Positions 7,717-13,156 of a stretch of DNA of 21,014 bases are shown in pieces. Position 1 is the first letter of the stretch; every line of letters begins with the position of its first letter. The notes beneath the pieces are model-generated. The model had not been told where the DNA came from. It searched no databases and was given only the letters and a program-made list of their open reading frames with translations. Location: positions 1-21,014 of IMG/VR virus record IMGVR_UViG_3300007541_000294. One strand, written 5' to 3'. The translations under genes were made by a program, and so were the position numbers. This DNA comes from a virus.

Positions 7717-10005
7717 ATGATTCTAGTAACTAAAAGAGACGGACGTAAAGAGCCATTAGACATTGAAAAACTACATAAAGTAGTTTTTTTCGCTTGTGAG
7801 GGTATTGCAGGAGTTAGTGCCAGTGAAGTAGAGATACATAGTCAGGTACAATTTTTTGATGGGATTACCTCAAGTGAAATTCAAGAGACTTTAATTAAAT
7901 CTGCAGCTGATTTAATCTCTGAAGAAAATCCAAATTACCAGTTTGTAGCTGGTAGATTAATTAACTATCATTTACGTAAACAAGTATACGGACGATACGA
8001 ACCTTATGAGCTACTAGATATTGTAGAGGCAAATGCTAAAAGAGGCTTCTACGATAAAAGTATTCTAGAGGTGTATTCTAAAAAAGAGTTTGCTACTCTA
8101 AATAAATATATTAAACATCAAAGAGATGAAAAATTAACTTATGTAGCTATGGAGCAATTCAGAGGTAAATATCTAGTACAAAATAGAGTAACAGGTGAAA
8201 TATTTGAAACTCCTCAAATAGCTTATATGTTAATTGCAATGACATTATTTCAGTCTTATCCTGTAGATACTAGATTGAAATGGGTAAAGGAATATTACGA
8301 TGCTATTAGTCAGCATGATATTAGCCTTCCTACTCCTGTTATGGCCGGTGTTAGGACTCCTCAGAGACAGTTCTCTAGTTGCGTTCTTATCGAGACTGAT
8401 GACAGCCTTGATTCCATTAATGCTACTACTAGTAGTGTGGTCAAATATGTCTCTCAAAAGGCTGGAATTGGAATTGGAGCAGGTAGGATTAGAGCATTGG
8501 GCTCCCCTATTCGCAAAGGTGATGCTTATCACACCGGAGTAATTCCGTTCTATAAAATGTTTCAAGCCGCTACTCGATCTTGTTCTCAAGGAGGAGTGCG
8601 TAACGGAGCAGCAACCTTATATTATCCTATCTGGCACTTAGAAGTAGAAGATCTATTAGTACTAAAAAACAATAAAGGCACGGAAGATAATCGTGTACGA
8701 CATATGGACTATGGCGTACAATTTAATAAGTTAATGTACGAAAGATTAATTACTGGAGGAAACATTACTCTTTTCTCTCCTTCCGACGTACCAGGTTTGT
8801 ATGAGTCATTTTTTAATAATCAAGACACTTTTAAACTACTCTATGAAGCAGCAGAGCGTAATCCCGCAATTCGTAAAAAAAGCTTAAAAGCTATTGATCT
8901 TTTTACCTCTTTTATGGAAGAGCGTAAAAATACTGGGCGTATATACTTACAAAACGTAGATCACGCTAATACTCATTCAAGCTTTGATGAAAAAGTAGCT
9001 CCTATTCATCAGTCTAATTTGTGTGCTGAAATTGATTTACCTACAAAACCTTTGAGTAGTTTTGAAGATGAAAGTGGGGAGATAGCTCTTTGTACTTTAA
9101 GCGCTATTAACTGGGGTAATATTAAAAGCCCCGCAGAATTTGAACGTCCTTGTGAGCTTGCAATTCGTGGGTTAGATGCGTTATTAAGCTATCAAGATTA
9201 TCCTATTAAAGCTGCACGCCGTGCAACCGATCTTCGTCGGCCCCTTGGAGTAGGCATTATTAACTTTGCCTACTGGCTTGCAAAGAATGGTTCAAGTTAT
9301 CAAGAACCTAATCTTGCGTTAATTGATGAGTGGGCAGAAGCTTGGAGTTATTATTTAATTAAAGCTTCTAATACATTAGCTAAAGAACAAGGTGCCTGCC
9401 CTGGATCTATGGAAACTAAGTATGGCAAAGGAATTACTCCTAACCAAACTTATAAGCGTGAAGTAGATGAATTAGTACCTCATGTAGAACGTATGGACTG
9501 GGAAAGCTTACGTGCTGATTTAGCACTACACGGTATTAGAAACTCTACAGTTATGGCGTTAATGCCCGCTGAAACGAGTGCTCAAATATCAAATAGTACA
9601 AACGGAATTGAACCTCCACGTAGTTTTGTAAGCGTAAAACAATCAAAACATGGTGTTTTAAAACAAGTAGTGCCTGGTATTCATAAGCTAAAATCTAAAT
9701 ATGACCTTCTATGGGATCAACGATCTCCAGAAGGATATATTAAAATTGTATCTGTATTACAAAAATATATTGACCAAGGTATTAGCGTAAACACTTCATA
9801 TAATCCACAATATTTTCCTGATGAAAAAATACCAATGAGTACTATGCTACAACATCTTCTAATGTTCTATAAGTATGGTGGTAAACAGCTTTACTATTTT
9901 AATACTTATGACGGACAAGGTGAAGTAGACTTAAACAAACTAAATGAAGAACCATTAGCACTAGAAGAAATTGACGACGCAAACTGTGAAAGCTGTGTTA
10001 TTTAA
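7717..10005 (+). CDS. nrdA: Ribonucleotide reductase class Ia, large (alpha) subunit
   Basis: This 762-residue enzyme reduces ribonucleoside diphosphates to deoxy forms. Residues 1-90 form an ATP-cone (VTKRDGRKEPLDIEKLHKVV), so allosteric activity control by ATP/dATP is probably kept. The redox pair is Cys222 (FSSCVLIE) and Cys459 (ALCTLSAINWG). The radical site is Asn434-x-Cys436-x-Glu438 in SNLCAE. The radical-transfer tyrosines are in KQLYYFNTYDG near the C-terminus. The flexible tail ends CESCVI, the Cys pair that passes electrons from thioredoxin or glutaredoxin. A strong AGAGGAG ribosome-binding site precedes the ATG. It works with NrdB encoded 11 bases downstream, and with ThyX further on, to supply dNTPs. 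Confidence 0.97.
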   Translation: MILVTKRDGRKEPLDIEKLHKVVFFACEGIAGVSASEVEIHSQVQFFDGITSSEIQETLIKSAADLISEENPNYQFVAGRLINYHLRKQVYGRYEPYELLDIVEANAKRGFYDKSILEVYSKKEFATLNKYIKHQRDEKLTYVAMEQFRGKYLVQNRVTGEIFETPQIAYMLIAMTLFQSYPVDTRLKWVKEYYDAISQHDISLPTPVMAGVRTPQRQFSSCVLIETDDSLDSINATTSSVVKYVSQKAGIGIGAGRIRALGSPIRKGDAYHTGVIPFYKMFQAATRSCSQGGVRNGAATLYYPIWHLEVEDLLVLKNNKGTEDNRVRHMDYGVQFNKLMYERLITGGNITLFSPSDVPGLYESFFNNQDTFKLLYEAAERNPAIRKKSLKAIDLFTSFMEERKNTGRIYLQNVDHANTHSSFDEKVAPIHQSNLCAEIDLPTKPLSSFEDESGEIALCTLSAINWGNIKSPAEFERPCELAIRGLDALLSYQDYPIKAARRATDLRRPLGVGIINFAYWLAKNGSSYQEPNLALIDEWAEAWSYYLIKASNTLAKEQGACPGSMETKYGKGITPNQTYKREVDELVPHVERMDWESLRADLALHGIRNSTVMALMPAETSAQISNSTNGIEPPRSFVSVKQSKHGVLKQVVPGIHKLKSKYDLLWDQRSPEGYIKIVSVLQKYIDQGISVNTSYNPQYFPDEKIPMSTMLQHLLMFYKYGGKQLYYFNTYDGQGEVDLNKLNEEPLALEEIDDANCESCVI

Positions 10006-10016
10006 AGGATAAAATT

Positions 10017-11183
10017 ATGTCAGTACTAAGCACAAAAAATAATGATCACACTCAAGCTCTTATGTTTCTAGATCCCTCTGGGGATCTAGGAATGCAACGT
10101 TATGATACTATGAAATATAGGTCTTTCGATAAACTAACAGATAAGCAATTAGGATTCTTTTGGAGACCTGAAGAAGTAGATGTACTACGAGATGCTAAAG
10201 ATTTTAAAGAACTTACAGAGTCTGAGCAACATATATTTACATCTAACTTAAAGCGTCAAATTCTACTAGACTCTGTACAAGGTCGATCTCCCAATCTTGC
10301 ACTACTTCCTATTGTAACTATTCCTGAACTTGAAACTTGGATTGAAACTTGGGCTTTTTCTGAAACTATTCACTCTCGTTCGTACACTCACATTATTCGT
10401 AACGTATACTCAAACCCCTCTAAAGTGTTTGATGAAATGTTAGATATTCAAGAAATTGTTGACTGTGCTGACGATATTACTAAGAACTATGACGAACTTA
10501 TCACTTTAAGCCAGTGGTATCAGCTCTTAGGAGAAGGTAAGCATGTAATAAGAACTCTAAAAGGAAAAACCTCTGGTGGAGAAATATGGCAATCACAAGA
10601 AGTAGCTGTAAACCTATACGAGCTTAAAAAACTACTTTATCTTTGTTTAGTGAGTGTTAATATTTTAGAAGGTGTTCGCTTCTACGTTAGCTTTGCTTGT
10701 AGTTGGGCATTTGCAGAGCTTAAGAAAATGGAAGGTAATGCTAAGATTATTAAGTTCATTGCTCGTGATGAAAATCTTCATCTTGCGTCTACTCAACAAA
10801 TTCTTAAACTGCTGCCTAAAGATGATCCTGACTATGTGCAGATCATAAGTGAATGTGAAGAGCAGGTTAAAGCTATGTTTATGGATGCTATCACACAAGA
10901 AAAACAGTGGGCTGAATATTTATTTAAAGATGGCTCTATGATTGGTTTAAATGCTCAATTATTAAAAGAGTATGTAGATTGGATTGCTCACAAACGCATG
11001 ACTTCAGTCGGTATTAAACCTTCATTTTCTGTACCGAGAGCTAACCCACTTCCTTGGACTCAAAAATGGATTTCAGGAGCAGAGGTACAAGTTGCACCTC
11101 AAGAAACTGAAATTTCTTCTTATGTCATTGGTGGAACTAAGCAGGATGTAAACGATAAAACATTCGAGGGTTTTAGCCTCTAA
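10017..11183 (+). CDS. nrdB: Ribonucleotide reductase class Ia, small (beta) subunit
   Basis: This 388-residue diiron protein generates the tyrosyl radical for NrdA. The metal ligands are readable: Asp85 (LLDSVQG), Glu116 and His119 in SETIHSRSYTHIIRN, Glu218 (ILEGVRFY), and Glu252 and His255 in RDENLHL. The radical tyrosine is Tyr123 in SRSYTH, so this is a radical-bearing class Ia type and not a Tyr-less variant. The C-terminal peptide ends FEGFSL, the usual aromatic/hydrophobic tail that docks into NrdA. AAAGGAT lies before the ATG. A 9-bp hairpin lies 51 bases inside the gene (10068-10089). The gene follows nrdA by 11 bases and is the last gene before the DUF1127 cassette. Confidence 0.97.
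   Translation: MSVLSTKNNDHTQALMFLDPSGDLGMQRYDTMKYRSFDKLTDKQLGFFWRPEEVDVLRDAKDFKELTESEQHIFTSNLKRQILLDSVQGRSPNLALLPIVTIPELETWIETWAFSETIHSRSYTHIIRNVYSNPSKVFDEMLDIQEIVDCADDITKNYDELITLSQWYQLLGEGKHVIRTLKGKTSGGEIWQSQEVAVNLYELKKLLYLCLVSVNILEGVRFYVSFACSWAFAELKKMEGNAKIIKFIARDENLHLASTQQILKLLPKDDPDYVQIISECEEQVKAMFMDAITQEKQWAEYLFKDGSMIGLNAQLLKEYVDWIAHKRMTSVGIKPSFSVPRANPLPWTQKWISGAEVQVAPQETEISSYVIGGTKQDVNDKTFEGFSL
10068..10089 (+). promoter_or_regulatory. RNA hairpin near the 5' end of nrdB
   Basis: CTAGATCCC at 10068-10076 pairs perfectly with GGGATCTAG at 10081-10089 around a TCTG loop. The stem is 9 bp and starts 51 bases after the nrdB ATG. No T-run follows. Its size and position are close to the hairpin in the glycosyltransferase gene at 3950, which argues weakly against chance. 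It could be an RNase or stability site. Coincidence remains possible because it sits in an ordinary coding stretch. Confidence 0.35.
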
Positions 11184-11185
11184 GC

Positions 11186-11202
11186 TATGCAAATTTTGCA
11201 TA
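11186..11202 (+). repeat. 17-bp palindrome after nrdB
   Basis: TATGCAAATTTTGCATA is symmetric about its central T and lies three bases after the nrdB stop codon. It is too tight at the centre for a full RNA stem but has the form of a DNA operator for a dimeric repressor. It contains the first in-frame ATG (11187) of the DUF1127 frame. No function can be read from the sequence alone. Confidence 0.35.
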
Positions 11203-11230
11203 TCGGGTTTGCCGTTTTAACAATTGTTAT

Positions 11231-11281
11231 TTTCTCCTTGTTATGTTATTATAATAATGTAGATAAACAAACAAGGAGAAA
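11231..11281 (+). promoter_or_regulatory. RBS-sequestering inverted repeat with a -10-like box in its loop
   Basis: TTTCTCCTTGTT (11231-11242) is the exact reverse complement of AACAAGGAGAAA (11270-11281), which contains the AAGGAGA ribosome-binding site of the DUF1127 gene starting at 11286. mRNA that covers both arms should hide this site in a 12-bp stem with a 27-base loop. The loop carries TATAAT (11250-11255) inside the 12-base palindrome TTATTATAATAA (11246-11257). A transcript begun from that box, near 11262, would lack the first arm and leave the site free. No good -35 lies 16-18 bases upstream, so promoter activity might need a phage-modified or late RNA polymerase. Confidence 0.6.
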
Positions 11282-11285
11282 TATA

Positions 11286-11522
11286 ATGAAACTTTTAATT
11301 GAATCTCTTTCTTTTATCTCTATTTACTCGTATAAACTAATTTCATGGTTTGAAGAGCAAATGAGTAACTATAAAAGATATAGAGATGTAGCAAAAACTG
11401 TTGAAGAGTTAAATAAACTTAGTGATAGTGAACTAACAGACATAGGTCTTACTCGTGGAGGAATCTATGAGGTTGCTTATAATTCTTTTCCTAAGAATTC
11501 TAAAGCAAAAGGGTGGGTATGA
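11286..11522 (+). CDS. DUF1127 (YjiS-like) small protein
   Basis: From ATG 11286 the product has 78 residues. Its C-terminal half, TVEELNKLSDSELTDIGLTRGGI (38-60), matches the DUF1127 pattern of paired Leu, SD.EL and DIGLTRG.I. Some members of this family in Alphaproteobacteria act in RNA turnover or phosphate control. A phage copy may steer host regulation, but that is inference. The start is chosen because AAGGAGA lies 7 bases upstream and family members are usually this short. The frame stays open to ATG 11187, which would add 33 residues with a hydrophobic segment and could give a membrane-anchored form, though its own ribosome-binding site is poor. The stop overlaps the next start as ATGA. 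Confidence 0.8.
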   Translation: MKLLIESLSFISIYSYKLISWFEEQMSNYKRYRDVAKTVEELNKLSDSELTDIGLTRGGIYEVAYNSFPKNSKAKGWV

Positions 11523-11713
11523 TGAATGATATGGTTATCAGCACTACTAACAGTATTTATATTTGGATTAGTAATGTGGTTTCTAAAGCTAATCGTATAT
11601 TCTGTGCAATTGGATATGCAAGAACTGCAGCAGAGCTTGCCCGACAAGGATACTACGAAGAAGCCCGAAAGTGTATGACAGAGGTTACAATTTTAAAATC
11701 AAAAGAGTCCTAA
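11519..11713 (+). CDS. Small protein, 64 aa, helical, TPR-like C-terminus
   Basis: The chosen start is ATG 11519, which overlaps the DUF1127 stop by four bases and follows an AGGGTGGG purine tract. GTG 11513 and ATG 11522 are also possible. The product has an amphipathic N-terminal half and a C-terminal helix, ARTAAELARQGYYEEARKCM, of the kind seen in TPR repeats and in some short alphaproteobacterial proteins that accompany DUF1127. No catalytic motif is present. Its coupling to the DUF1127 gene and the terminator directly behind it show that the two form one expression unit. The function is unknown. Its stop codon lies inside the terminator stem. Confidence 0.65.
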   Translation: MMNDMVISTTNSIYIWISNVVSKANRIFCAIGYARTAAELARQGYYEEARKCMTEVTILKSKES

Positions 11714-11729
11714 TTAGGACTCTTTTTTT
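11702..11729 (+). terminator. Rho-independent terminator after the DUF1127 cassette
   Basis: AAAGAGTCCTA (11702-11712) pairs with TAGGACTCTTT (11715-11725) around a very short centre, and a run of seven T follows to 11729. It overlaps the stop codon of the 64-residue protein. It should end transcription from nrdAB and from the local start in the cassette, so the resolvase-like gene downstream would need its own promoter or antitermination. Confidence 0.85.
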
Positions 11730-11778
11730 ATGGACTTTTGCTGCTTAATTATATACACTTATCTTGAAGGGAGTTATT

Positions 11779-12219
11779 ATGAGTAGTAAAAGTAAAACAA
11801 AAGGTAGGTCTTTTGAATATGTAGTTAGAGATCTTTTCTCTGAACACTTTAATAATAAATTTGAAAGAGTGCCTCTTTCAGGAGCCTTAGAGTATCTTAA
11901 AGGTGATGTTTATTGTCCTTGGCTACCAGAGTTTCCATATTGTATAGAGGCAAAACACCATAAAGAAGTACCGTGGAACAACTTAATTAGTGCTAAAAAA
12001 TCTTCCCTATTACTAGATTTCTGGAAACAAACTTGTAGAGAAGCTGATAAAATGAAACGTAAGCCTTTACTAGTTTATAAATGGGATAGAAGTAAGATAT
12101 ATGTATGTTGGAATGATGAAATAGAAATTAGTGATCAAATAAGTGTTAAAATAGAAGACATGTATTTTAAAATGGGATTATTTGACGATTGGATTCAAGA
12201 AGTTACTAAAAAGAGCTAG
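11779..12219 (+). CDS. PD-(D/E)XK nuclease, putative Holliday junction resolvase
   Basis: This 146-residue protein has the archaeal-Hjc-like pattern of small resolvases. Glu13 lies in the first helix (KGRSFEYVVRDLF) and a basic strand reads ERVPLSGA. Asp43 is in KGDVY, and Glu57-x-Lys59 is in CIEAKH. These are the E...D...ExK residues that bind Mg in the PD-(D/E)XK fold. It likely trims or resolves branched replication intermediates before packaging. ATG 11779 is chosen because AAGGGAG ends five bases upstream. A TTG at 11764 would place that ribosome-binding site inside the gene. It follows a terminator, with only an AT-rich ATATACA box upstream as a candidate start signal. A VRR-NUC or other nuclease of the same fold is the alternative. 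Confidence 0.72.
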   Translation: MSSKSKTKGRSFEYVVRDLFSEHFNNKFERVPLSGALEYLKGDVYCPWLPEFPYCIEAKHHKEVPWNNLISAKKSSLLLDFWKQTCREADKMKRKPLLVYKWDRSKIYVCWNDEIEISDQISVKIEDMYFKMGLFDDWIQEVTKKS

Positions 12220-12238
12220 TCATTCTTTTAATTTTTAC

Positions 12239-12267
12239 TTGCACAACGATTAAATATATTATATTAT
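12239..12267 (+). promoter_or_regulatory. Likely sigma70 promoter for the flap endonuclease-thyX block
   Basis: TTGCAC (12239-12244) and TATTAT (12262-12267) are separated by 17 bases, giving 4 of 6 and 5 of 6 matches to consensus in a 76-base AT-rich gap. The start would be near 12274, leaving a leader of about 22 bases with GGAG at 12282-12285 before ATG 12296. The high A+T content makes chance -10 matches common. Confidence 0.55.
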
Positions 12268-12295
12268 GATTATATAATTATGGAGAATAACAATA

Positions 12296-13156
12296 ATGAC
12301 TAGTAGTTGGAATGATCTAGCTGAACTCGAACAAGAGAAGCTAGAAGAAAAAAATTTATTGCTTATTGATGCTAATAACTTAGCCTTTAGGTATTTGCAT
12401 CGTCCTAACTTTGATAATTTTTCTCAAGAATATATTAAAACAATTAGTAGTTTAGCTAAAAGCTATTCTGCACTTAGAACAATTTGCTGCTTTGATGTAG
12501 GAGCCTCTGCTTATAGAAAAACAATTTTTGCAGGGTATAAGCAAAATCGTAAAGAGATTAAGCGCACAGAAGAAGAACAGATTCGTTTTACCGGATTTTT
12601 CAATTGCCTGAAAGATACCACAGATATTCTACCTTTTGAGCACTATAAATTTAAAGGTATTGAGGCTGATGATATCATTACCTATCTTACAGTAAACTTA
12701 AAAGATAAGTATGATAATGTATGGATAGTTTCAAGTGACAGAGACTTATATCAGCTTCTTGATCATAACGTTAGTATCTTCAATTTGTTTTCTCGTAAAG
12801 AGATAACACTAGATTCTCTCTATGAAGAAACAGAGCTTACTCCCGAAGAGTTTCTATTCTCTCGAATTATTGAAGGAGATAAGAGTGATGGCATTCTAGG
12901 TATTGAAGGTATAGGTAAAAAACGTAGTCAAACTTTAGTACAAGAATATAAAACTCTTGATAATCTTATTGCTGCTTTACCCTTAAAAGGTAAATCTAAA
13001 TATATTCAAAATCTTAATAGCGGCAAAGAGATTCTTTTGCTAAATAAACAGTTAATGGATTTAACTAGTCATCTTGATGTTGCTATTTCTATGTCAGAAA
13101 GTCCTGAAGTTGTTTCAGAAGTTCTTTCTAATGCTCTAAATAAAATAAAGGTATAA
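12296..13156 (+). CDS. 5'-3' exonuclease / flap endonuclease (FEN family)
   Basis: The 286-residue protein matches the PIN-like FEN fold of T4 RNase H, T5 D15 and the PolA 5' nuclease domain. The acidic metal ligands are Asp25 (LLIDANNL), Glu123, Asp125 and Asp126 (GIEADD), Asp148 and Asp150 (SSDRD), and Asp195 and Asp198 (GDKSD). A helix-hairpin-helix DNA-binding element, GIEGIGKKR, lies at 202-210, and a basic arch region surrounds GYKQNRKE (80-87). It removes RNA primers and 5' flaps, a task the polymerase at the left edge would need from a separate protein if it lacks this domain. The first ~18 residues before the catalytic domain are polar and extra. GGAG lies 10 bases upstream of the ATG. 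thyX starts two bases after the stop. Confidence 0.93.
   Translation: MTSSWNDLAELEQEKLEEKNLLLIDANNLAFRYLHRPNFDNFSQEYIKTISSLAKSYSALRTICCFDVGASAYRKTIFAGYKQNRKEIKRTEEEQIRFTGFFNCLKDTTDILPFEHYKFKGIEADDIITYLTVNLKDKYDNVWIVSSDRDLYQLLDHNVSIFNLFSRKEITLDSLYEETELTPEEFLFSRIIEGDKSDGILGIEGIGKKRSQTLVQEYKTLDNLIAALPLKGKSKYIQNLNSGKEILLLNKQLMDLTSHLDVAISMSESPEVVSEVLSNALNKIKV

Follow-up and report, generated by a model that had tools for sequence, protein, structure and literature searches.

A predicted translation lock embedded in a host-type promoter ahead of a phage DUF1127 gene

In a 21,014-base IMG/VR fragment from an uncultured phage (hereafter the window, meaning this whole stretch of DNA), a small DUF1127 gene stands behind what appears to be a captured host promoter, which is probably shielded from phage read-through by a translation lock embedded within it. 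From the sequence, its conservation, the operator-promoter spacing, the host regulon and computed folding, we infer how read-through, RNA start, regulator binding and translation would be connected. The cassette at 11184-11733 would be a host-type DUF1127 two-gene unit placed behind the phage nrdAB genes, and its promoter is probably driven by a host VtlR-type regulator. Transcription of nrdAB would run on into the cassette, because no evident terminator follows nrdB. In the resulting mRNA, the RNA copy of the promoter region would pair with the ribosome-binding site (RBS) and the start codon and leave this message untranslated, whereas RNA begun inside the hairpin would lack the 5' arm and be translatable.

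The order after the end of nrdB at 11183 is a 27-base palindromic element, the promoter with the hairpin, two small genes, and an inverted repeat with a T run (Table 1). A terminator scan between nrdB and the small genes reported none. A first-pass annotation of this DNA had named the gene behind the hairpin as DUF1127, which was borne out by its match to Pfam PF06568 (E 5e-9; 36.2 bits, above the gathering cut-off of 23.3). The window NrdB has its best match in isolated-phage records at about 63% identity; with no close isolated phage, the host was deduced from the operator described below, which points to a marine bacterium of Rhodobacteraceae type. In L099 / L085 and L197, a gene for a pseudoazurin-like secreted protein (MKKLLYTVAIMASLATPAFAEDMTIEMLNKRDDG) lies beside DUF1127 genes or directly after the palindrome.

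Table 1 Features of the DUF1127 cassette and its upstream region in the window
Feature	Position	Strand	Remark
nrdB	10017..11183	+	PF00268 E 5.6e-45; would-be source of read-through toward the DUF1127 cluster
Host-type palindromic element, GCTATGCAAATTTTGCATATCGGGTTT	11184..11210	+	core TATGCA-N5-TGCATA at 11186-11202
-35 hexamer TTGTTA	11224..11229	+	at the aligned position in relatives
5' arm of the predicted lock, TTTCTCCTTGTT	11231-11242	+	within the -35/-10 spacer
Extended -10, TGT-TATTAT (hexamer 11247-11252)	11244..11252	+	offset from palindrome common to five leader types
Inferred RNA start (+/- 2), between the arms	11259	+	-10 end + 7
3' arm of the predicted lock, AACAAGGAGAAA	11270-11281	+	contains the Shine-Dalgarno AAGGAG (11273-11278)
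DUF1127 small protein, 78 aa, start codon 11286-11288	11286..11522	+	PF06568 E 5.1e-9
Second small cassette gene, 64 aa	11519..11713	+	akin to the third gene of L085/L091-type clusters
Inverted repeat (13 bp), then T run	11701..11733	+	likely intrinsic terminator ending the cassette

The first-pass annotation had also described two complementary 12-base arms around this start, and the sequences at 11231-11242 and 11270-11281 are indeed exact complements. On its own, the hairpin has a computed folding energy of -17.9 kcal/mol (z -6.3; none of 200 shuffles as good), and the computed fold spans about 11224-11292, AUG included, with the helix reaching the start codon at 11286. Computed folding of the long transcript places the Shine-Dalgarno (SD) and/or AUG within the helix, and opening the SD-to-AUG region of DUF1127 would cost 14.1 kcal/mol, against only 1.2-6.1 kcal/mol for the other 23 starts in the window, which makes it the sole locked start of the 24. 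The 12-bp anti-SD match in its leader was the longest among 698 distinct viral starts. In the promoter-started window RNA, a residual structure of 7.5 kcal/mol is predicted, formed by the SD with codons near 11311-11317, and the folding model suggests that this structure may hold expression low. An Rfam search with the hairpin and the compared leaders returned no family, the sole match being the tRNA of L099. Elsewhere in the window, at 12216-12303, a perfect 9-bp helix (CTAGTCATT/AATGACTAG) covers the start codon of a 5'-3' exonuclease gene and contains TTGCAC-17-TATTAT in its loop, a DUF1127-like but weak layout (3.5 vs 1.3 kcal/mol).

The window promoter is TTGTTA-17-TATTAT with an extended TGT, and it lies behind the host-type palindrome. 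Its -10 element occurs at an identical offset from the palindrome in five leader types (TATTAT, TATATT, TATACT, TATTAT, and TATACT). Among other, unrelated viruses carrying the palindrome, the mean -10 score was highest at the same offset, where a weak peak was also seen in hosts with the palindrome. The TATAAT that the first-pass annotation reported in the loop is present (11250-11255), but its proposed role as the start signal was rejected, since it lies three bases off the conserved offset; the TATTAT at 11247-11252 fits this offset and, judged from sequence, is probably the start signal. The expected transcript start accordingly shifts from near 11262, as initially proposed, to near 11259. 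This position is downstream of the 5' arm, so RNA from the cassette's own promoter would lack that arm. No T4-type phage late promoter (TATAAATA, gp55) was found at the DUF1127 leader, which has TTGTTA-17-TATTAT instead; the T4-like early/late timing suggested earlier thus finds no support, as the promoter sits behind a host LysR-box-like palindrome and is not T4-like late.

Relatives were gathered using NrdB, the downstream endonuclease and the palindrome as queries, and they comprised five leader types: the window (with the near-identical L086 and L089), L094/L134, L095/L152, L091/L098, and a clade of L084, L085, L099, L101 and L103. At 4-fold degenerate sites of nrdB, the relatives showed 48-59% identity to the window (about 55% for L094). 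Between L094 and the window, 24 consecutive bases (GTTATTTTCTCCTTGTTATGTTAT), including the whole 5' arm, are unchanged, and the loop differs. In all four leader types without an evident terminator after nrdB, the computed opening cost was 13-22 kcal/mol, reached through at least three different pairings. The values for read-through and promoter-started RNA were 14.0 vs 7.5 kcal/mol in the window, 20.6 vs 6.1 in L134 (equal to L094), 16.1 vs 1.3 in L095, and 13.1 vs 0.9 in L098. When the 73 nt ahead of the RNA start were shuffled, the z values were 6.7, 7.4, 5.4 and 4.7 for the window, L134, L095 and L098, respectively (0 of 300 shuffles each). Without exception, the locked leaders have their 5' arm upstream of the point at which transcription is expected to begin. 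The case named at the outset as speaking against the hairpin was that of related phages with a retained RBS and no complementary arm. L095 and L098, which have no CTCCTT arm, literally fit this description, yet in both of them another arm locks the RBS and AUG. Here, substitute arms from the promoter region (GTTGTGTCAT in L095 and GTTGTGTTAT in L098) pair with ATGACACAA, which consists of the start codon and the first codons. The hairpin of the window and L094 is common by descent, and the independent lock types number about three.

In the fifth clade, a tRNA gene and a strong terminator lie between nrdB and the cluster. The leaders of this clade showed no lock (read-through 3.0-4.9 vs promoter-started 1.3-1.4 kcal/mol), and their shuffles gave z values of 2.0, -0.1, 2.0 and 1.9. 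Because the four terminator-less types are locked and the terminator clade is unlocked, lock and terminator are, within this small sample, alternative insulating devices. The initial idea that read-through RNA would be silent and internally started RNA free is therefore favored by the lock strength in the four terminator-less types and by its absence in the terminator clade, but for the window itself it is tempered by the modeled residual structure of 7.5 kcal/mol. In L096 (about 2150-2400), a terminator and a structured-looking leader precede a related small-gene cluster, with no Rfam match.

The palindrome, which the first-pass annotation had overlooked, was found in all leader types as TATGCA-N5-TGCATA, and its core at 11186-11202 contains a LysR-box-like T-N11-A dyad. 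The usual position of a LysR recognition site is about -65. In all five leader types, the center of the palindrome (TGCA-N5-TGCA) is 65 nt before the inferred RNA start, so that the T-N11-A dyad is placed near -65 as in a LysR-type operator. We surveyed 198 genomes from the family of an Aliiroseovarius isolate, and this survey, like one scan of bacterial genomes, recovered the element in hosts. The operator pattern was present in 22 of the 198 host-family genomes, compared with 1 for the reversed-pattern control. Of the 23 host loci, 15 are followed by a DUF1127 gene, and 6-7 lead into a short RNA-like unit that carries CCTCCCTGTTG plus a terminator; a LysR gene (start MDWDKLR) is directly upstream in 7/7 of the sRNA loci, two of which were Pfam-checked. 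This arrangement, in which a LysR gene of Rhodobacteraceae type precedes the palindrome and then the AbcR-like sRNA with its terminator, is seen in L164, L165, L171, L175, L178, L181 and L185. Rfam gave no match for two LysR-sRNA loci (L122, from the same genome as L185, and L125).

In alphaproteobacteria, a single site that heads DUF1127 genes as well as an AbcR-like sRNA is the arrangement of the VtlR regulon. VtlR, a LysR regulator of Brucella, is an activator of AbcR2 and of three DUF1127 genes (PMC12595884); in A. tumefaciens, the regulator acts in this way on the abcR1 promoter and on further targets (PMC7486931). Compared with the published Brucella VtlR motif (CAATGCAGCCATGCA), the palindrome has identical TGCA halves, with a spacer of 4 in the motif vs 5 here. 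Given the DUF1127 and AbcR-like sRNA targets, the adjoining LysR gene, the T-N11-A dyad and the center at 65, the sequence data suggest that the palindrome is a VtlR-type LysR operator. A final palindrome scan found no additional DUF1127 lineage. In L186, L190, L191, L194, L195 and L198, the palindrome is joined by a third TATGCA-like half-site (AGCTATGCA-N5-TGCATAYCNG-NTATGC), and the genes that follow are unrelated; in two of these viruses, L186 and L198, the leader likewise seems to be locked (z 4.4 and 5.2).

A question raised by these findings is whether the hairpin could have another role. It might be a plain translational damper, an mRNA stabilizer or an RNase III site that affects every message, with its overlap with the promoter being incidental. 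The partial RBS structure kept by the promoter-started window RNA (7.5 kcal/mol) agrees with a damper, but RNA from the conserved promoter sheds most of its structure in each of the four leader types. The 5' arm is, moreover, always upstream of the inferred start, whereas a general damper would be expected inside the 5' UTR; we regard this explanation as unlikely. Less probable still is control of DUF1127, or in the window its extension, by a leader peptide translated after nrdB from the ATG at 11187 (MQILHIGFAVLTIVIFSLLCY...). In the window this frame is open, in frame with DUF1127, and starts 3 nt past the nrdB stop, and attenuation by an upstream ORF (uORF) has a precedent in an S. meliloti DUF1127 gene (PMC12218461). 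However, the ATG at 11187 belongs to the DNA palindrome and has no SD before it, its frame with respect to DUF1127 changes between the four leader types (0, 1, 2 and 2), as does the ORF length, and 4 of the 5 codons changed before the loop between the window and L094 are non-synonymous. No conserved translated uORF of the S. meliloti type was found in the four leader types. Since nrdB stops 41-48 bases ahead of the hairpin, terminating ribosomes should not melt it. A point against the lock model is that ribosomes ending nrdB could reinitiate at the ATG at 11187 and unfold the hairpin.

The inverted repeat could also be read in DNA, as a repressor-bound operator flanking the -10 box with an accidental match to the RBS. 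The repeat does enclose the -10 box; on the contrary, the 3' arm coincides exactly with the SD region, the relatives hold lock strength with unrelated arms, which is unexpected for a protein-bound repeat, and the conserved palindrome at -65 already fills the operator role, so that we give this reading very little credence. Slightest of all is the probability of a chance hairpin in AT-rich DNA, an explanation already disfavored. The exact arm is common to just two diverged lineages, as chance would allow, but the z values reach 4.7-7.4 in four leader types, the anti-SD match is the best of 698 starts, and the arm is conserved even though neutral sites are near saturation. Overall, a captured host promoter with an embedded translation lock is the reading that we consider probable. 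A broader scenario, which we put forward more tentatively, is that phages infecting marine Rhodobacteraceae-like hosts have repeatedly captured a promoter of the host LysR(VtlR)-AbcR-DUF1127 regulon and re-evolved locks (with other arms to equal effect, or a terminator in their place), so that the timing of DUF1127 expression lies with a host regulator and not with the phage programme.

The association of promoters with locked leaders was also examined across 784 viral starts. With all loci included, promoter-in-locked-leader enrichment was observed (OR 3-4, p about 6e-4); after removal of the DUF1127 leaders and hairpin-selected loci, it was not significant (OR 1.9, p 0.10), and a general excess of such leaders across viral starts was therefore dropped. 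A DNA-pattern contrast gave 8 loci with arms in lock order vs 1 in reversed order, which is suggestive only; three of these 8 are the DUF1127 leader family, and all five unrelated ones are at start codons. In addition, unrelated viral genes in L153 (830-865), L154 (minus strand, near 2560) and L157 (minus strand, near 9891) have a TTTCTCCTTG...CAAGGAGAAA lock at the start codon, with promoter-like hexamers whose -10 is in the loop. Strong RBS hairpins holding a promoter, again with the -10 in the loop, were seen at marine phage genes in L128 (minus strand, 3461) and L146 (1947), and in L036 (6615) and L097 (3511) (TTGCGT-17-TATAAT; TTGCTA-17-TATAAT).

RBS-sequestering leaders are known from T4 genes e, soc, 49 and I-TevI (PMC3014915). 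As in T4 gene e, a long upstream RNA would fold over the SD/AUG here, and an internal promoter near the RBS would yield RNA without the 5' part; T4, however, uses gp55 late promoters for timing, whereas the present leader has a sigma-70-like promoter, a host LysR-type operator and a host-like DUF1127 target. In B. subtilis, a hairpin of 20+ bp has been proposed to lock spoIIG read-through RNA at sigG (PMC5942855). There too, RNA from the upstream operon would be locked, and transcripts begun at the sigG promoter itself are unable to form the hairpin, but sigG is a cellular gene for sporulation, read from a sigma-F/G promoter, and involves neither a phage nor a LysR operator. The VtlR regulon of Brucella and Agrobacterium, in which a LysR activator controls AbcR sRNAs and small DUF1127 genes (PMC12595884, PMC7486931), resembles the present case in that an AbcR-like sRNA and DUF1127 lie behind one palindrome and the LysR gene adjoins the sRNA in Rhodobacteraceae-type genomes; in contrast, the half-site spacing departs from the Brucella motif, the operator here is predicted, and the RNA lock would be an addition of the phage. 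Finally, Sinorhizobium meliloti duf1127-1 is subject to uORF-dependent, presumably Rho-mediated, transcription attenuation (PMC12218461). In both systems an mRNA leader with a paired RBS would silence a DUF1127 gene, but here the RBS/AUG of the read-through RNA would be occluded directly.

The principle is thus known from T4 gene e and sigG; what is new is that the promoter is of a host LysR type, that the target is DUF1127, that the arms turn over and that lock and terminator replace one another. The arms are wholly replaced between relatives, an RNA structure being preserved by function and not by sequence, and the LysR-AbcR-DUF1127 regulon of Rhodobacteraceae-type bacteria is outlined from sequence alone. 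As a rule for the insulation of cargo genes by phages, 'lock or terminator' can also be tested. If the proposed mechanism is true, the phage would have put an accessory gene under a stress/metabolism regulator of its host and, by acting on translation, shielded that gene from the phage's own transcription.
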